The notes below the pieces were generated by a model. It made no database searches and was not told the origin of the DNA. It saw only the letters and a list, made by a program, of their open reading frames with translations. 64,000 nucleotides of DNA, from contig NZ_CP042437.1 in NCBI RefSeq assembly GCF_007971525.1, positions 2,232,001 to 2,296,000 of the forward strand, given 5' to 3'. This document shows positions 8,980-17,268 of this stretch, one piece after another. Position numbers and translations under genes: made by a program. Origin of the DNA: Mucilaginibacter ginsenosidivorax. Its GTDB lineage: Bacteria > Bacteroidota > Bacteroidia > Sphingobacteriales > Sphingobacteriaceae. The first letter of the stretch is position 1; every line of letters begins with the position of its first letter.

Positions 8980-9669
8980 TCCTCTGATTTACAAATTTGT
9001 TTATTTTTTGATGAATATATTATTAATTGTTTCTCTATGACTGTCTTGTAAGCGATATGTTACCCGCTTTGCGATGCAAATATGCAATTTCAAAAAGGCA
9101 ATATGAAGATTAAGGACAAAAGTCTTTTGCTGGGAAGTCTGAAAGGCACAAAATTGCATTTTTCCATCAATCCTGGTGCATGATATCGAGTATGCACCAC
9201 ATTATCAGGGTGGCTGCCTTAGCTACAGAATTATGCGGCGGGTTGATTATTTAAGCGAACGGTATCCGCTAATGGGGTCAGTAAAATTTACCTGCAGAGC
9301 GAATAACTAATTGCATCACATATATCAAAAGCCAAATAAGAAATACCCCGAAATCGAAATAAGGAACAGATAAATTTAGTTATGGTCAGTATTCTACTTT
9401 ACTATGTATTTCGCTTTCCGAAAAAGCCAAAACAAAACTAATAGTAATCATCACGGACTGCTTTGCAACAAATAATGCCAATTTGGTTAAAAACTCAAGG
9501 TGTTCGGCGGAAACAGCCGGGTAAAAATTGAAATGCCCGAGGGCTACCAGTTTCTGATAGCACATCTGCATTATCTTAAGTTAAGCGTTCAGCTTTTCTC
9601 TAAAAATGGATTCTTTTATAAGTGGTTGCTATTGGGGCATTAAACTTGCTCATCTTCAAGTGCTGCGCC
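8980..9669. other. Gene-poor boundary of the bacteriocin-like island
   Basis: About 690 bases without a convincing gene. On the plus strand, 9143-9310 reads open for about 55 codons and contains a plausible protein-like stretch (IEYAPHYQGGCLSYRIMRRV), perhaps a decayed gene end; I do not recognise it. A 61-codon minus-strand frame at 9386-9571 has no support. Base composition is richer in A+T than the flanking lepB genes. Confidence 0.4.
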
Positions 9670-9873
9670 CTATTTATCAACAACATTATACTTGTTTTTC
9701 AGTAAAAACATCAGATAATATCCTGCAAATATTATCCCCCAAATTATAAGTACTTTCCATGAGTATTTGTACAATCCGGGATATTCCATCCTCAGGTTTG
9801 GAACCAGGTATAAAACCGCAACAATCAATATTAACCCAGCTCCTATAACTCCTAACATTCCCCAAATTTTCAT
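9670..9873 (-). CDS. Small two-helix membrane protein of the bacteriocin-like locus
   Basis: 67 residues with two hydrophobic segments (about 4-25 and 39-58) separated by a short polar loop, and a Lys-rich C-terminal tail. Family not recognised. It is the last gene on the strand of the island, 59 bases after the C39-peptidase exporter. Small membrane proteins at this place in bacteriocin loci are often immunity proteins; that role is inference only. Confidence 0.6.
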   Translation of the reverse strand: MKIWGMLGVIGAGLILIVAVLYLVPNLRMEYPGLYKYSWKVLIIWGIIFAGYYLMFLLKNKYNVVDK

Positions 9874-9932
9874 AGCATTTAATTATTAACAAACATTTCT
9901 CTAAAATATAAAAAAACAACCAAATTTAACCC

Positions 9933-12083
9933 TCAGATAACAACATCAGCCTTAATTAAATATTTTTTTTGATCGATATTATATATAGGGCCAAGACTTT
10001 CTGCTAAGCCGATATTGTGTGTAATCATAGCTATTAGCATTTTTTGCTTTAAGTTATCCAGCAATTTGATAATAAAGCTTTCGGTTTCGCTATCCATTGA
10101 TGCCGTAGCCTCGTCAAGTAAAAGCAATTGGGGTTGGCGATAAAGCGCTCTGGCAAAGGCGACCAACTGCCTTTGCCCCCCTGACAAACTGACGCCGTCT
10201 TCACCCAATAAAGTGCCGTATCCTTGCGGAAATAAACTAAAATACTTATCAAAGCCGTACTCTACGCAAAATTTATAAACTTTAACCATTTCCTCCTGCA
10301 AATAGGTAAGGTCTGGGCCTGGTTCCTGGATATCAAAATTCAAGGCTATATTTTGAAGCAGATTGCAGTTAAAAAACTTAATATCCTGGGGCACTACCGC
10401 AACATTTGATCGCCAGCTGGCATTATCATAAGCATTCAAATCATGACCATCTATGGTAATTTGCCCGGACTCGATAAAGGCAAATTTTTGCAAAATTTGA
10501 AAGATAGTACTTTTGCCGCTACCTGTTTTTCCAAGGATAACAAAAATTTGCCCTTTGTTTAGCTCAAAAGAAACTTTATCTAACAACTTTGGGCGCCCAA
10601 TAAATCTGAATGATATATCTTTTATAACAATAGAATTAATGCTGCCCCCTTTAACCGCGCCGCTATCCGGATTTAAACTTTGTTCTCCTTCTAAATAAAC
10701 AAATTCATACATCCTATTGAAGGCAACTTTAGCTTCCTGAATTTGAATATTTGACATGGCCAGGCGAACAACTGCCGATATAATGCCCGATGTTACTGTT
10801 AGTATAGCCATTAACTCGCCTATTTTAAGTTGATGACTTATCACCAATAGCGAACTACAGGTCAAAATGGTCATCAATAAAACTATCCCAATAATTTCTG
10901 ACCACCAATTTAACCTGGTTTTGGTTATTCCAAGTTTATAAAGCTCGGATTGAAACATTTTAAAAAAGTTCTGCGTAACCCGGCTAAACCCTTTTTCAAG
11001 TCCCGACATTTTAATAACTTCAATACCTTGGATAGAATCAATATAGTTACTATCATTCCGGGCATAGGCCTTCATTACATCTGTTTGTCCGGCTAATATT
11101 TTATCAGAATATATATTTGATAACGCAAAAGAAAGAGGAATACTTGCTAAAGTGCAAAGCGCAATGACGACGCCAAAATTAAAAACATAAAAAACAGAAA
11201 CTATAACAATAAGTAAATCAATAACAACCGAACCTGCCAAAAAACTAATGGTTTGTTGAATCCTGTAAGTATCGTTTAACCGCGATATTAAATCGCCGGT
11301 TTTCCTATTGGCGAAAAAATTCTTAGGCAATGACAATAGCAGGCTGTAAAATTTATTAGTAATACGGTTGTTAAATGCTACACCCTGCTTCAACAACATT
11401 ACCGACCTGAGGTAATTCACCCCGCTTTTTGTTACTAACAGGATAGTTGCCAAAATCAAGCTAATCGATAATTTAAATGTATTATGCTCGGGTAAAACAT
11501 TATCTATCAGCTTTTGCGAAAGTATGGGCATGCAAAGAGACAGTGCAGCGATTATTAAGCCCATAAAGGCAGTAGCAAACAACAATGTTAAATCATCATC
11601 AATCAATCCCCTAATCCACGCCAACTTACTGCCTCTTTTAGTTTTCCTTTCATTAAAGGCTTCGTTACAAGACAGCCGCAGCATGTATTTTTTTTGCCAA
11701 ATTTTTAAAAGTTCGGCCTCTGATATTTCAGAAACGCCCTTTGCGGGGTCGCCAATTAAAAATCCAGACGGTCCATATTGATATAAAACTATGTAATGCT
11801 CCAGATAGCCATCTACCAAAACATGCAATATACAAGGACCATCATTTTTTTTTATTTCGGCTATGTCATCAACCTCAAATGCCTCGGCATTAAACCCAAG
11901 CGATTGCGAAGCCCTATAAAGGCCGAGCATGGTAGTACCTTGAACGGAGGTTCCGCTTATTTGTCTTATATTTTCAAAAGAATCATCGCCGTTATAGTAT
12001 CTGACTACAGAAAGTAAGCATGCGACAGCGCAATCAGATTGATCATGCTGTTTAGTGAATGATTTTCTAATCTTTTTATTCAT
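9933..12083 (-). CDS. C39-peptidase-containing ABC exporter (bacteriocin processing/export)
   Basis: 716 residues. The frame opens with a TTG at 12104, but the ATG at 12083 gives the usual short lead before the peptidase. Three parts: C39 peptidase (about 1-130) with Gln12, Cys18 in KQHDQSDCAVACL, His96 and Asp112 (IGDPAKG), so the triad is complete; a six-helix exporter domain (about 160-445); and an ATPase with Walker A GKTGSGKST, signature LSGGQRQ and Walker B LLLLDEATASMD. This family cuts leader peptides after Gly-Gly and exports the product through the inner membrane. Two small GG-leader peptides lie upstream on the same strand (14874-15304), the evident substrates. No HlyD adaptor gene is nearby. 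Confidence 0.92.
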   Translation of the reverse strand: MNKKIRKSFTKQHDQSDCAVACLLSVVRYYNGDDSFENIRQISGTSVQGTTMLGLYRASQSLGFNAEAFEVDDIAEIKKNDGPCILHVLVDGYLEHYIVLYQYGPSGFLIGDPAKGVSEISEAELLKIWQKKYMLRLSCNEAFNERKTKRGSKLAWIRGLIDDDLTLLFATAFMGLIIAALSLCMPILSQKLIDNVLPEHNTFKLSISLILATILLVTKSGVNYLRSVMLLKQGVAFNNRITNKFYSLLLSLPKNFFANRKTGDLISRLNDTYRIQQTISFLAGSVVIDLLIVIVSVFYVFNFGVVIALCTLASIPLSFALSNIYSDKILAGQTDVMKAYARNDSNYIDSIQGIEVIKMSGLEKGFSRVTQNFFKMFQSELYKLGITKTRLNWWSEIIGIVLLMTILTCSSLLVISHQLKIGELMAILTVTSGIISAVVRLAMSNIQIQEAKVAFNRMYEFVYLEGEQSLNPDSGAVKGGSINSIVIKDISFRFIGRPKLLDKVSFELNKGQIFVILGKTGSGKSTIFQILQKFAFIESGQITIDGHDLNAYDNASWRSNVAVVPQDIKFFNCNLLQNIALNFDIQEPGPDLTYLQEEMVKVYKFCVEYGFDKYFSLFPQGYGTLLGEDGVSLSGGQRQLVAFARALYRQPQLLLLDEATASMDSETESFIIKLLDNLKQKMLIAMITHNIGLAESLGPIYNIDQKKYLIKADVVI

Positions 12084-12156
12084 ACCTGCATAATTATTTT
12101 GCAAACAAATAATTGTTAATTTATCTGAAATATTGTTGCTTTAATTGCATCTGCTC

Positions 12157-12678
12157 TTAATTTAACCATTGGGTAAGCGCAGAAATTTTTGTTTCACCTG
12201 AATAGTTTTTAACAAGCTTTAAATCTTTATTATAAATGAAGATACCAGGGGTTCTGCGGGAGCCAAAAGCCTTGTAAAACTCATCGTCATCAGATTTTAG
12301 CATGGTTAAATTTTTTAAGCTGCCAAGTTTAAATCCTTTAAAATAGCTATCAATTTGTGCGAAGGGCTCATTGGAAACCATTATTATTGAAGTATTACTA
12401 AATGCACTTTGATGTTTTACCAACTCCCCGGCTTCATACTGACAGGAGCCACACATGGTATTGTAGTAAATAATAATGCATGGACGTTTTTTGGGGATAT
12501 CTTTTGAAAGAAAATATTTGGTACTATCCTGCATCAGCCGAAATTTCATGTTAGGAGGAACGCCCAACTGTGATTCCATTTTTGAGTTAAACCTCATTTT
12601 TATAATTATACTATACAGTAATACTGATACAACTATGGCAATAATGCCTAAACAGACCGCTATGATTTTTTTCTTCAT
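12157..12678 (-). CDS. Membrane-anchored thioredoxin-fold protein with CGSC
   Basis: 173 residues. One N-terminal hydrophobic segment (about 4-27) anchors the protein, placing the rest in the periplasm. A thioredoxin-like fold follows with the redox pair Cys76-Gly-Ser-Cys79 in YYNTMCGSCQYE and a cis-Pro loop (RRTPGIFIYN) near residue 145. It resembles TlpA/AhpC-type oxidoreductases. In this locus it lies between the membrane partner of an ABC exporter and the C39 exporter. Both peptides have two cysteines in the mature part, so it may make or rearrange their disulfides; direction of the reaction cannot be read from the sequence. Confidence 0.82.
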   Translation of the reverse strand: MKKKIIAVCLGIIAIVVSVLLYSIIIKMRFNSKMESQLGVPPNMKFRLMQDSTKYFLSKDIPKKRPCIIIYYNTMCGSCQYEAGELVKHQSAFSNTSIIMVSNEPFAQIDSYFKGFKLGSLKNLTMLKSDDDEFYKAFGSRRTPGIFIYNKDLKLVKNYSGETKISALTQWLN

Positions 12679-12706
12679 ATTTATTAAAAAGAGGTTCGAT
12701 TATACT

Positions 12707-14089
12707 TTAGGTTGAAATCAAAGGTTTATTAAAATTAGCTGCTGCCTGCCTAAAAAAATAGCCAGCGAAAACTATACAGACAGCAACATTTAACAAAGCA
12801 ACTGAACAAATTAGAACAGTGTTTTGACAGTATAAAGCTACCGCTGCTATTATCCCAACAATGAGCGTTATAAGCGAGCTGATAAAATTTGTATTGGTTT
12901 GTTTGTTTATGGAGTCGACTAATGTTTTGGGATATTTTAAAGAGAACACCAGCGACATAGCTATTAAACTTAAACAAACTGAGAAGTAAAGTAGAAAGAA
13001 GCGATAATCAATTGGAACTATAATTTTAAAGTACCGGCCCCAAACAGCCTGCAAAATGAATATTAGTATATCAATCAATAAATCTAACGGCAGCAACACC
13101 ATTATTAATGGATATACATAGGTTCTGATTATAGTTTTATGAATATTCCTGCTAAAAAAAACGTTACGATATAAATCAACACCAAATGCGAATATGTTGT
13201 TAAAGAGATAGGTAAACAATAATATGGGTAAAATACAAACAAGGTAAAAAAACTGGTATCCAGCCATAAATTTCAACAGGCCTGTTGACGTACCGAGTAA
13301 ATAAACCAATTTTACCAGGTACAACAGAATTATGCTAGACCGAATTTTATTAGCCGATAATAAATATCGTAATACTATGGTTGACGTATTAGTATTTCTT
13401 GATTTGATATTTATGGATAATGCCTTGGACTGAACAGCAATCTGCCCATAAGAATGATAGGAAACGATAAAAATTAACACCAATAGCGTTAACAAATAAA
13501 AATTGGAAAATTTTAAAAAGTATAGCCAAACAGTTAATATGCTCAAAAAAAGGTAAACAATATGACTAATGTTAAACCTGGATTCGAAAACAGATCTTAT
13601 GGCACGGTTTATATGAAAATATACGAATAACAACAGTAAAACAGCAAAAACGTCTGTAAAGACAACAGATTTGGAAAAGGCGGCGAAGCAAATAAAAAAA
13701 AGCAATATCACCATATAAAAAAACGAGAACAAGTCGCGAAAAAGACTCACCGAATATTTTATAACCGGGTTTAAGTTATAATAAGGATTATCAACAAAAC
13801 GAATAGTCCTGAATGTTGGAAAAATGTATTTTACAATAATAATTACCCCGGTAGCCAGTGAAAGTGCCGATATTAAATTAAATTTAACATGCTTTGCAAG
13901 TAACAAGTCGTTTAACTTGCCGAATATAAAACCATCAAAAACTATCAGCAGAATTATTAGGCCCACCAACACTCTGTCGGTTTTTTTATGGCTTACAATT
14001 ACCTTTTTTTTGGATAGCAGTATTGATAAAAATTTTAATAAAGAAAATAATTGACGTAATTTAAATCCAGTTGGGGAGTAGTACTTCAT
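12707..14089 (-). CDS. Polytopic membrane protein, ABC exporter permease partner
   Basis: 460 residues with about eleven hydrophobic segments and few long loops. The start overlaps the end of the ABC ATPase gene by 29 bases, which indicates translational coupling and makes it the likely membrane partner of that ATPase. No sequence family recognised with confidence; ABC-2-type or bacteriocin self-protection permeases have this size and layout. Probably exports the peptides or protects the producer against them. AT-rich like the rest of the island. Confidence 0.7.
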   Translation of the reverse strand: MKYYSPTGFKLRQLFSLLKFLSILLSKKKVIVSHKKTDRVLVGLIILLIVFDGFIFGKLNDLLLAKHVKFNLISALSLATGVIIIVKYIFPTFRTIRFVDNPYYNLNPVIKYSVSLFRDLFSFFYMVILLFFICFAAFSKSVVFTDVFAVLLLLFVYFHINRAIRSVFESRFNISHIVYLFLSILTVWLYFLKFSNFYLLTLLVLIFIVSYHSYGQIAVQSKALSINIKSRNTNTSTIVLRYLLSANKIRSSIILLYLVKLVYLLGTSTGLLKFMAGYQFFYLVCILPILLFTYLFNNIFAFGVDLYRNVFFSRNIHKTIIRTYVYPLIMVLLPLDLLIDILIFILQAVWGRYFKIIVPIDYRFFLLYFSVCLSLIAMSLVFSLKYPKTLVDSINKQTNTNFISSLITLIVGIIAAVALYCQNTVLICSVALLNVAVCIVFAGYFFRQAAANFNKPLIST

Positions 14090-14816
14090 CAGGCCTTATG
14101 TGTTCTTTGGGTAAGTATTTAAAAAAATTCTCCAATACGGTTTCGCCCTGGGCGTAAAAGTTGTCTTTTTTTTCCTTTATGATAATCTTACCGTGGCTAA
14201 TAAGGGCTACATCTGTAGCTAACTCTTTAATATAAGAGAGATCGTGGCTTGAGATGAGTAAGGTTTTTCCCTTTAACATCATTAATTTAAAAACCCGTAT
14301 CAATTTATCAACAAATACCGGGTCAAGTCCATTAAAAGGCTCATCAAGAATAAGAATACCGGGCGAGTTTAATAATGCGGCACAAAATTCAAGGCGTTTT
14401 TTATTCCCTGTTGAATAAGTAGATATCGTGTTATTGATTAAGCTCTTATCGTCAAAAAACAGATCGATTAAATCATTTATCTTATTTTTTAAATCTATCC
14501 TTTTCATGCTCAACAGCAGCCCGTGCAGCATTAAAAAATCATATCCGGATAGGTCCTCAATTAATAACGATTTTTCGGGCATACACCCAATTTTCCCCTT
14601 TATAGTATTACTTTTATCATAGTATGTTTCTCCCATTATCTGTAATTCCCCGTAATCGGGTGTCAATATGCCAAGTATTACATTTAAAATGGTGCTCTTC
14701 CCGGCACCATTGGGCCCAATCAGGCACAAACATTCCCCCTGGTTAACCGTAATATTAATGCCATCTAACACTTTTTTTTCGCTAAACGCTTTGCATATAT
14801 TTTTTAGTTCAATCAT
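14061..14816 (-). CDS. ABC transporter ATP-binding protein
   Basis: 251 residues. Complete ATPase: Walker A GPNGAGKST (about 35-43), an altered signature YSTGNKKRLEF in place of LSGGQ, Walker B ILILDEPFNGLDP and the switch His in LISSHD. The signature form YSTGNKKR is common in ABC-2-type exporters of the CcmA group. The stop lies inside the next gene, whose membrane protein is its presumed partner. Upstream are the two GG-leader peptides. In class II bacteriocin loci such pairs often give immunity by pumping peptide out of the membrane; here that is inference. Confidence 0.88.
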   Translation of the reverse strand: MIELKNICKAFSEKKVLDGINITVNQGECLCLIGPNGAGKSTILNVILGILTPDYGELQIMGETYYDKSNTIKGKIGCMPEKSLLIEDLSGYDFLMLHGLLLSMKRIDLKNKINDLIDLFFDDKSLINNTISTYSTGNKKRLEFCAALLNSPGILILDEPFNGLDPVFVDKLIRVFKLMMLKGKTLLISSHDLSYIKELATDVALISHGKIIIKEKKDNFYAQGETVLENFFKYLPKEHIRPDEVLLPNWI

Positions 14817-14873
14817 ATCCGTGTATGCGCAATTAAGAGGGATTGGAAAACATCTTCCAACCCCTCAAAAAAT

Positions 14874-15083
14874 TTAAGAGAATAGCGAGTAAATACCATA
14901 AGCGGCGCATCCAACGCCAGCCCCGGCAACTACCCAGGCAGCTACGCCGCCTGTTGCCACAGTTGCTCCTAATAATGTTGCAACGCCTGCTACTGAAACA
15001 CCAGCCGCTAAGCCTGCACAAAAACCTGCCGCTGCAGACCCACCCTGAATTTCTTCGAGTTCGATAAGTTCTAGATTTCTCAT
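14874..15083 (-). CDS. Double-glycine leader peptide A (bacteriocin-like)
   Basis: 69 residues. Leader MRNLELIELEEIQGG (15) fits the ELxxIxGG pattern cut by C39 peptidases. The predicted mature peptide is 54 residues, almost free of charge, rich in Gly, Ala and Val, with two cysteines (Cys22 and Cys59 of the precursor) and several GxxxG helix-contact motifs (positions 20-24, 24-28, 54-58). This is the profile of a membrane-active class II bacteriocin, especially of the two-peptide type. It follows peptide B by 26 bases. The very small size keeps the gene out of many automatic annotations. Confidence 0.85.
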   Translation of the reverse strand: MRNLELIELEEIQGGSAAAGFCAGLAAGVSVAGVATLLGATVATGGVAAWVVAGAGVGCAAYGIYSLFS

Positions 15084-15109
15084 TTTTTTTGTTTTTTAAG
15101 GTTAAATAA

Positions 15110-15304
15110 TTAGTTACTAACAGCAGCTCCAATAGCCAATCCAATACAGGTTGGCCCAAATATGGCACCGGTTACAAAAATGCCAAAACCACCAAATACA
15201 CCACCTGAAATTGCAAGACCACATGCAACTCCGGCACCTGTGGCAAGCCCGTCTTTCGAGCCACCATTGATTAACGCCATCTTCTCAAGTTCCAAAGATT
15301 TCAT
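15110..15304 (-). CDS. Double-glycine leader peptide B (bacteriocin-like)
   Basis: 64 residues. Leader MKSLELEKMALINGG (15), similar to peptide A, with Ile at -4 and Gly-Gly at the cut site. The mature part is 49 residues: SKDG, then a hydrophobic Gly-rich sequence with Cys28 and Cys53 and GxxxG motifs at 25-29, 34-38 and 35-39. A and B share leader, size, Gly/Ala-rich nature and one cysteine pair, but their cores differ, as expected for two complementary peptides. First small gene of the locus after the membrane protein at 15394-16059. Confidence 0.85.
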   Translation of the reverse strand: MKSLELEKMALINGGSKDGLATGAGVACGLAISGGVFGGFGIFVTGAIFGPTCIGLAIGAAVSN

Positions 15305-15393
15305 AAAAAAATTAAGTTGTAATTGTACCTACTCTATCAGCTTTTCGGTTTCCGCTGTTATGAAGTTTACTTCATAAGTATTTTCATTGAGTA

Positions 15394-16059
15394 TTAACTC
15401 AGGTTAATGCTCAAAAACATTATAAAAATGGTCCATACAAGCAAACCTGCTCCGTATGACGATATAACTGTAACCCCTGTTTTTTTAATTGGCAAGCCCA
15501 ATTGATTGCTTAAGCAATAACTCAGGCTAAAACAGTAAATGATTTCAAAAATATTGGTTGTTGAAAGCGGATAATAGAACCATTTCTTAACGTTAGCAAT
15601 ATCAACCAGGCTTAGTAATGAAAACGGCGAAAAAAGCTGGAGGTCTAATAAGGTGTAACGTGTTTTAAAAAAAGAGAACCAAATTATTTTAATAATGAGA
15701 GGGATAAGAAAGATGGTTTCGCTGATAATGACGATTTTAAAAATCTTTGAAAAGCTTATTTTGAAGTTGCTAAAAATAGCTCCAACCATTAAACACATGC
15801 TGATTAAAAAGAATTTAATTGAGTAACAAATTGGCAATATGATATACCCTAAATACTGATATTTTTTTTGAAGGTTAATAAACTCCTCTATCCTATCTGC
15901 GCCAAGCTGCTGTGAATAATAGTTATATATTACCGTATCTGACATTAATATAAAATTAAATACAGCAGTTAAAGCAACTACGCATATACAAAAGATTATA
16001 AACAAATAGTACGTTTTAAGTGAATTAAAATCCTTGTAAGTGACAAGTATTAGGTTCAT
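15394..16059 (-). CDS. Membrane protein of the bacteriocin-like locus
   Basis: 221 residues with five or six hydrophobic segments: about 18-38, 72-95, 100-120, 155-180 and 195-218. Family not recognised; the fold resembles Yip1-like small membrane proteins by eye only. First gene of the minus-strand block, 89 bases before peptide B and probably in the same transcript. Could be immunity, a helper for export or an unrelated protein. Low-GC codon use like the rest of the island. Confidence 0.65.
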   Translation of the reverse strand: MNLILVTYKDFNSLKTYYLFIIFCICVVALTAVFNFILMSDTVIYNYYSQQLGADRIEEFINLQKKYQYLGYIILPICYSIKFFLISMCLMVGAIFSNFKISFSKIFKIVIISETIFLIPLIIKIIWFSFFKTRYTLLDLQLFSPFSLLSLVDIANVKKWFYYPLSTTNIFEIIYCFSLSYCLSNQLGLPIKKTGVTVISSYGAGLLVWTIFIMFLSINLS

Positions 16060-17268
16060 AAGGAAAATAAGTTTAAGTGTTAATTAAAAATTGAACGTCA
16101 CAAGATATATAATCGTTTTCAATAAAAAAAAATATTTTCAAGAAAAACATAGTATTTTTTTTTTCAATTTGTTTTCCTGAGCCCAAATTGGAAAATACTA
16201 ATTTTCAGAATTAATAGATATATCTAAATAAAAATAATTCGAACTATCAAAAAATTAATTCACAATAGCGAATATTTAAGTTTATAATGGTAATTTTTTC
16301 AAAATTATATCCGATTTGAAATTAATTTATTAAAATTACTTTTTAATAAACATAAAACATTATACAAAAAAATTCATGAAGATTTATAATGGAGTTGGCT
16401 ATTTAGGGTTGGGGCATGATGGTATTGATAAGTATCTGCGAAATTTTTCCATTTTTAATTAATGTAAAATTAAAATAATTTCAAATCGAAGTATTTTACA
16501 TGATAGCCTGGTGTCTCATTTACGCTATTGTATATATCATAATATCAATTGGTAACTTTAATAAATCACGATAAAAACAGTAGTAAATTTTAATATCTAA
16601 TACCTTTTAAATACAATAATGAGGTATTTATACTTTTCCGTTAATTTTTTGTATACCAACAATTTGCATTAAATACAGCAGTAGATGACAGCCGGAACTT
16701 ATGACTTGCAAGCAAGCAAAAAATCCAGACCATTATCCCTAACACTGGAAAATAAGTCCTAAACCGCCACATCCGTACTGTTATTAAGTCAAGAAATTAC
16801 CAACGATTGAACATCCAACACCTGTCGTCCGATATCGAATCTTACTGTTTCCTTTAATTTTTAATCAATGTTGTAAAGAGACCACAGGCCTTTTGCTACT
16901 AAAAGCCCTGCGCCACATTCTTTGGGTCAAGGCTTCCGGGCGGATGCTTTGTGATTTGAATAATTCAAAGGGCAAATGCAGTTGCCGGGGGGGGGGTTAA
17001 TCGCCAATGGGTTTTGGCTTCAGCACTTCCAAATTAGCTAGTGTTAATGCAAGCCTTGCCGCAAACAATAACGACCCTATTGCAGGATTCCCCGGTAAGC
17101 GTGTTTGCCAATGGTACCGAGGCCGCACAAACTAAAGTGGTTATTATACCCTTTGACAATTACCAGGCAGCTATTAAACGCCCGGGCGGTTATTATATAA
17201 ACACACAAACCGGGGCGCCTTATGTTACCGGCGATAATTGTAATTTGAAATCTGTACATCTACAATCT
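16060..17268. other. AT-rich gene-free stretch with possible gene remnants
   Basis: About 1.2 kb at the upstream edge of the island. 16060-16700 is very AT-rich and holds no convincing gene; it should contain the promoter of the peptide locus, but no clear TAnnTTTG box stood out. 16850-17268 has more balanced composition, a run of ten G at 16987-16996, and short coding-like pieces on both strands without complete frames: plus 17047-17249 (VIIPFDNYQAAIKRPGGYY) and minus, ending near 16999 (LANLEVLKPKPIGD). These may be remnants of genes broken when the island arrived. Confidence 0.4.

Follow-up and report, generated by a model that had tools for sequence, protein, structure and literature searches.

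Two small tandem genes in the genome of Mucilaginibacter ginsenosidivorax, a single contig of 7.81 Mb, encode peptides with double-glycine (GG) leaders and glycine-rich cores. The question raised by this locus is whether the two products, here called A and B, act as one toxin, an arrangement in two parts known chiefly from Gram-positive bacteria, or whether they are exported for separate or other purposes. The analysis was carried out on a stretch of 64,000 nucleotides containing the pair (the window) and on related loci in other genomes. We favor the reading that the locus is an acquired cassette of the bacteroidetocin type that makes a class IIb-like two-peptide membrane toxin, with a probability of roughly 0.56.

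The peptide pair and its genomic setting

The two tandem frames of 64 and 69 residues reported in the first-pass annotation are present on the minus strand, separated by 26 nt (Table 1), and both precursors do have a 15-residue leader ending in Gly-Gly, with Ser as the next residue. The cores are hydrophobic and rich in Gly and Ala (43% in A and 50% in B), carry no net charge, and contain exactly two cysteines, at core positions 13 and 38 in A and 7 and 44 in B, which agrees with that description. As to GxxxG motifs, its wording of several per peptide suits A (six versus 3.1 expected from shuffled cores), whereas the number in B is modest (three versus 1.9). The cores of A and B are unlike each other (z 0.2; 1000 shuffles). 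With a leader matrix whose training set included the A and B leaders in part, A and B were the sole ORFs in the 64 kb window scoring 6 or more (26.2 and 24.6, respectively), and with both left out of training the raw scores were 19.0 for A and 22.5 for B. In 40 first-order randomizations of the window there were seven matches of at least 6, two of at least 9, and none of at least 12. The view that A and B are genuine genes is further supported by the related pairs in other genomes described below.

Table 1. Features of the acquired segment in the window.
Feature	Position	Strand	Remarks
Inserted island between two signal-peptidase genes	9146-17248		Alignment break versus relative G020 (L165)
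Small two-TM protein, 67 aa, candidate immunity protein	9670-9873	minus	Two hydrophobic segments; within insertion
C39 peptidase-ABC exporter, 723-aa ORF from TTG	9933-12104	minus	PF03412, PF00664 and PF00005 all above cut-off
Thioredoxin-like protein with CGSC, 173 aa, presumed disulfide former	12157-12678	minus	CxxC common to two relatives
Multi-TM protein, 460 aa, presumed permease of ABC pair	12707-14089	minus	29-nt overlap with ATPase gene
ABC ATPase, 251 aa, candidate self-protection	14061-14816	minus	PF00005, 9.5e-27
Precursor peptide B, 69 aa	14874-15083	minus	15-aa GG leader and 54-aa core, two Cys, three GxxxG
Precursor peptide A, 64 aa	15110-15304	minus	15-aa GG leader and 49-aa core, two Cys, six GxxxG; transcribed first
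DUF805b cis-regulatory RNA element (RF02914)	15326-15358	minus	21 nt before A start codon; 44.8 bits, gathering score 35.6, E 2.7e-10
20-bp inverted repeat, 9-bp arms, candidate operator	15358-15377		Upstream of A
Five-TM membrane protein, 221 aa	15394-16059	minus	First gene of run; presumed counterpart of bacteroidetocin "TM protein"

The pair lies in a minus-strand run of eight genes, encoding the five-TM protein, A, B, the ABC ATPase, the multi-TM protein, the CxxC protein, the C39-ABC exporter and the two-TM protein. The five-TM protein had no Pfam or NCBIfam match at E ≤ 1. Its structural model (pLDDT 82.8) contains five helices of at least 18 residues; Foldseek gave no match in the PDB at E ≤ 0.001, the best VIA Z among 265 chains was 4.6, and no PDB sequence matched at E ≤ 1, so its function is not derivable from these searches. 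Relatives of this protein adjoin a CxxC protein, a C39 exporter and GG peptides. The CGSC protein scores 26.5 bits with the Redoxin model, against a cut-off of 26.6, and other thioredoxin models are likewise just below theirs. The exporter residues Q19, C25, H103 and D119 are conserved in two relatives. That the exporter is seen as two ORFs in Flavobacterium segetis and in the Flammeovirgaceae genome UBA5585 counts against the preferred reading, as does the content of the run itself: with no HlyD or TolC gene among the eight, the passage through the outer membrane is unaccounted for.

The best NCBIfam match of the ABC ATPase is the lantibiotic-protection ABC model TIGR03740, at 154.6 bits (cut-off 309.75), and its 460-residue neighbor gave no notable family match in Pfam or NCBIfam. 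Close homologues of this ABC pair, with the ATPase beside the multi-TM protein, were seen in only three loci (L011, L060, L064). The fold model of the presumed permease was unusable (pLDDT 42.8), and as a tracer of the cassette this protein recovered its own genome only among 395 (M. endophyticus lies outside the sample); the five-TM protein was therefore taken as the tracer instead.

The eight genes occupy an insertion of about 8.1 kb. The alignment with the nearest relative compared (G020), which lacks this segment, ends at window position 17249 and restarts at 9145, with 379 nt between the two points in G020. The first two signal-peptidase genes, the first of which is 92% identical between G020 and the window, are 672 bp apart in G020 and about 8.4 kb apart in the window. 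The GC content in 1-kb bins is 0.287-0.383 from 9 to 17 kb, versus 0.415-0.494 outside. The insertion and its low GC content support horizontal acquisition of the cassette.

Upstream of A lie two potential control elements. The inverted repeat was matched once in the window and not at all in 100 shuffles, with a pattern picked after the repeat had been sighted. The DUF805b element also stands before the leading peptide of the pair in L131 (L131 9513-9551); the search that showed this gave no hit over the gathering score in six further loci. A pattern for its core has 17 matches across 1.39 Mb of loci; six of these precede a scored GG peptide, and two more (in L039, and the second in L080) precede GG peptides recognised by eye. 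The genome of M. ginsenosidivorax holds six matches. Of 41 genomes, 33 gave matches, which were over the cut-off in 25, and none of 14 control genomes gave any. Because the element also precedes unrelated genes, it is a general leader element and is not specific to bacteriocins. The GG-peptide genes that it precedes are of several kinds (window, L131, L148, L156), and in L148 and L156 it stands directly upstream of tandem peptides with another leader (..VNGG).

Relatives of the cassette and of the pair

With the five-TM profile, matches were obtained in 22 of the 395 genomes taken from the class, and with a wider version in 34 of 351 from the family; the two genome samples overlap. Locus stretches of up to 20 kb were taken for all matches save three weak ones (G326:C44, G411 and G108), and the set also includes named loci and loci reached via peptide B, with the duplicates L059, L060 and L064 excluded from counts. 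A five-TM match was present at 64 loci, 27 of which have both a CxxC protein and a C39 exporter nearby. These complete cassettes contain one GG peptide in 12 cases, two in 10, none in two, and three, four and six in one case each. The 22 cassettes whose five-TM score is at least 190 bits are referred to as core cassettes.

This distribution bears on whether A and B could be structural or stress membrane peptides with no antibacterial role. Such peptides might have a similarly simple Gly/Ala composition, and activity data were found for none of the Gly-rich peptides examined, yet we regard this explanation as very improbable, given a dedicated C39 exporter and CxxC protein, the patchy occurrence of the five-TM protein, the location of the cassette on an insertion, and the similar cassette on a Flammeovirga plasmid. 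The latter (L141, plasmid NZ_CP034564.1 of Flammeovirga pectinis) consists of genes for a five-TM protein, a redoxin, a C39 protein and a GG peptide, with transposase genes and a LanC-like gene nearby. Neither peptide B nor a four-Cys peptide gave any match when plasmids were searched, and the plasmid search with the exporter was swamped by other C39 exporters.

In F. segetis, relatives of A and B occur in the same order beside the same kind of cassette. Core A is similar to its F. segetis counterpart with a z of 13.6 and core B to its own with a z of 11.3; core B also resembles a peptide of Flammeovirgaceae UBA5585 (z 5.4; 1000 shuffles in each case). A B profile built from three sequences, one of them that of F. 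segetis, gave matches at E ≤ 0.05 in 17 of 397 genomes from the same family as F. segetis, and several of the weak matches, which fall inside long frames, are probably due to chance. Seven matches have E values of at most 2.6e-5: G755 (F. segetis), G1110, G859, G1128, G931, G777 and G760. Six of the seven have a tandem partner. In G777 the GG peptides are separated by other genes, with no cassette within its 11.6 kb, and in G1128 the matched B frame contains a stop and the leader of the partner ends in AS. A cassette adjoins the match in G755, G1110, G859 and G760; the matches in G931 and G1128 are near contig ends. The first-pass annotation had made its interpretation depend on homologues occurring as pairs beside C39 exporters, and this is the arrangement found, with tandem pairs adjoining C39 cassettes and their order kept in the pairs compared.

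Order was further assessed on 14 curated pairs. Links with z ≥ 4 join 6 of 91 first-first combinations, 14 of 91 second-second combinations, and 3 of 182 cross combinations, and 21 of the 8192 possible labellings reach the observed value of the order statistic. Five of these pairs (L130-L133 and L135) were fetched via the B profile, a route that enriches for similar second peptides but does not bear on where they stand in the pair, and, owing to an unusual leader, four (L039, L080, L082 and L132) were identified by eye. These selections and the three cross links count against the preferred reading.

The first-pass annotation expected a pair of this kind to be unusual in Bacteroidota, which the core cassettes correct: as scored by program, nine of the 22 have an adjacent pair, 11 have one or more peptides without an adjacent scored pair, and two have none. 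The share of nine is inflated because, besides the window, six of these loci (L010, L011, L130, L131, L135 and L136) entered the set through the peptide-B search. In the remaining 15 core cassettes the scorer found three pairs (L041, of another peptide type; L062; L079) and three further ones were recognised by eye (L039, L080 and L082). Thus tandem pairs are recurrent in the cassettes of Bacteroidota, and they are not universal. The 11 cassettes without an adjacent scored pair, the two without a peptide, and L041 with six peptides of another type indicate that the machinery does not depend on a pair; this, and the leaning of the sample toward pairs, counts against the preferred reading.

Over 28 cores, 65 GxxxG motifs were counted, versus 44.0 expected (sd 5.4). 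Exactly two cysteines are present in 33 of the 39 GG peptides of the 22 core cassettes, and in all 33 of these one Cys lies at most 13 residues from the cleavage site and the other at most 12 from the end. Given this placement near both ends of the core, and a CxxC protein in every core cassette, one closing disulfide per core is likely, and A and B are each probably closed in this manner.

Comparison with described bacteriocin systems

The bacteroidetocins, proposed as class IIf by Coyne et al. 2019, are reported from regions encoding a TM protein with five TM segments, the peptide, a thiol oxidoreductase and a C39 ABC exporter; in the accessible part of that work, these four genes conferred toxin activity in E. 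coli, deletion of the gene for the TM protein, the peptide or the thiol oxidoreductase attenuated activity, and no immunity gene was found in the region (PMC6671954). All four gene kinds are present in the M. ginsenosidivorax run, the five-TM proteins being matched by description. Further shared characteristics are the location on acquired DNA, the 15-residue GG leader (15-16 residues in bacteroidetocins) and the two Cys in each peptide, where bacteroidetocin peptides have at least two (PMC6671954). Relative to their reported size of about 35-50 residues, the cores of 49 and 54 residues are within the range for A and slightly over it for B. The payload is different: bacteroidetocins A and B are described as somewhat basic cores of 42 residues with four Cys and a Lys after the GG (PMC6671954), unlike the two neutral, Gly/Ala-rich cores considered here, with two Cys each and Ser after the GG. 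The ABC pair and the small two-TM gene, both candidates for immunity, are likewise additional to the bacteroidetocin region. The shared gene kinds point to the same type of machinery with a different payload. The first-pass annotation had set bacteroidetocins apart as a group of single peptides; this is accurate as to number, since the 35 regions so described encode 36 peptides and are nearly all single (PMC6671954), but the separation does not extend to the cassette, whose gene kinds are the same. Some of the relatives found here may be among the 14 extra peptides mentioned by Coyne et al. (PMC6671954). Four loci (L055, L057, L058 and L137) contain four-Cys peptides with Lys after the GG that fit the bacteroidetocin description, a comparison made by description only; those of them that were scanned reached no NCBIfam or Pfam cut-off.

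The likeness to class IIb proposed in the first-pass annotation is borne out by the adjacent GG-leader genes, which are kept paired and in order in relatives (in a sample that leans toward pairs), by the hydrophobic GxxxG cores, by the C39 neighborhood and predicted export, and by the single small TM gene that follows the pair in several relatives. It falls short at the level of the sequences themselves. No curated class IIb or IIc model reached its cut-off, the nearest values being E 0.099 for B with lactococcin G-alpha and E 0.03 for A with PF10439, and a relative in L076 scored 26.3 bits against a cut-off of 27.1 with a class IIb/IIc model. Class IIb peptides are usually cationic, unlike the neutral cores of A and B, each of which moreover has a conserved Cys pair and comes from a Gram-negative host.

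A two-protein glycine-zipper bacteriocin is described in Gram-negative Caulobacter, where CdzC and CdzD, of 84-86 residues, are exported by a type I ABC system with the adaptor CdzB, kill on contact, and are countered by the immunity protein CdzI, a small protein with three predicted TM segments (PMC5380434). This activity demonstrates that a Gram-negative glycine-zipper pair is able to kill. The M. ginsenosidivorax pair is similar in its glycine-zipper peptides and predicted ABC export, and it differs in that the adaptor of the CdzA/CdzB system is absent beside it, no HlyD-like gene being present in the run. By this resemblance, and because an RNA element precedes A, the peptides might be exported signals or contact toxins attached to the surface, instead of a diffusible two-peptide toxin. 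We consider this improbable: both a histidine kinase and an HlyD-like adaptor are missing among the eight genes, and peptides with a Cys or Pro interrupting the zipper were removed in the Cdz search, as far as its available description goes (PMC5380434). Pheromones so far known also differ from hydrophobic cores of about 50 residues.

In the available portions of the open PMC literature consulted (PMC8546649, PMC5380434, PMC11195462, PMC10352776, PMC12648078, PMC13289728 and PMC11278639), no two-peptide family of Bacteroidota is described. The preview of the IIBacFinder atlas predicts class II precursors in Gram-negative phyla including Bacteroidota, as a bulk prediction that names, in the part available, no two-peptide family from this phylum (PMC12648078), and none of the 21 two-component clusters predicted in rumen isolates is placed in Bacteroidota in the accessible text (PMC13289728). 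Whether the present pairs constitute a distinct Gram-negative family, marked by neutral Gly/Ala loops with a single disulfide, machinery of the bacteroidetocin type, control in part by DUF805b, a single small immunity protein with two TM segments for each pair, and release without an HlyD/TolC channel of its own, is a proposal that we make only tentatively.

Proposed action, self-protection and other payloads

In the proposed mechanism, the C39 domain would cleave each precursor after Gly-Gly and the exporter would carry the hydrophobic cores over the inner membrane, where the CxxC protein could join the N-side and C-side Cys of each core and so close a Gly/Ala-rich loop. The five-TM protein may help export or maturation, a role proposed because its bacteroidetocin counterpart is required for full activity in the producer. 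Closed A and B would then act jointly, with small-xxx-small faces packing in the envelope of related bacteria; bacteroidetocins, for their part, are reported to target BamA and to kill Bacteroidales (PMC8546649). The producer would be protected by the small two-TM protein, the ABC pair, or both.

Immunity genes are expected in the spot after the peptide unit. Of 37 peptide units, 15 (among them 7 of the 11 two-peptide units) have a small ORF with at least two hydrophobic segments in the next 300 nt, as compared with 19 of 434 control genes (of at least 100 aa, from the same loci), which makes these ORFs candidates. Against the preferred reading, neither the window pair nor that of F. segetis has a small two-TM ORF directly after it; in F. 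segetis this spot holds a 40-residue ORF with one hydrophobic segment. The alternatives in the window are the 67-residue two-TM gene, last in the run, and the ABC pair, both being candidates for self-protection.

The arrangement of these small genes is also pertinent to the principal competing explanation, in which A and B are independent one-peptide bacteriocins with a shared exporter, each killing alone as the tested bacteroidetocins do, and the tandem arrangement is an economy of transcription. Single-peptide cassettes are common, the second-peptide type is found paired with differing first-peptide types, and two peptides of L061 each have a small TM gene of their own after them, while one such gene separates peptides in L063. 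Conversely, Mucilaginibacter and Flavobacterium both retain A and B together and in one order, the order effect over the 14 pairs is attained by few labellings (21/8192, in a set biased by its selection), and seven loci (L010, L011, L077, L130, L131, L133 and L135) have one small TM gene per two peptides. We judge independent action possible and lean against it.

If the two-peptide toxin reading is correct, the bacteroidetocin cassette would be a general delivery platform with a swappable payload, here a two-peptide toxin, and the class IIb principle would reach Bacteroidota, the strains concerned being F. segetis DSM 19741, M. endophyticus RS1 and M. kameinonensis SCK. It would also become possible to test what the five-TM protein and the self-protection genes do, and short synthetic peptides could be tried against Bacteroidota.

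Other GG peptides were encountered in the course of the analysis. L041 encodes six short ones, five of them with four Cys, next to the same cassette, and represents a third type of payload. In L134, at a contig end, GG peptides alternate with small TM proteins, with no exporter within the stretch. A second export locus in the M. ginsenosidivorax genome (L012, 4155000-4174900) has two ORFs with C39 domains, a protein resembling HlyD on visual inspection, and a 63-residue GG peptide of another kind that is rich in Cys. Finally, a single conserved GG peptide of Mucilaginibacter and relatives, with two Cys around a GGLFGG..GPSC-like core, is located near a distant five-TM protein (L086-L091, L093, L095-L097, L099 and L100). 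Several of these loci have an adjacent C39 ORF of 450-500 residues; that of L095, the only one scanned, has Peptidase_C39 alone and no ATPase domain. Core A weakly resembles this peptide (z 4.1).
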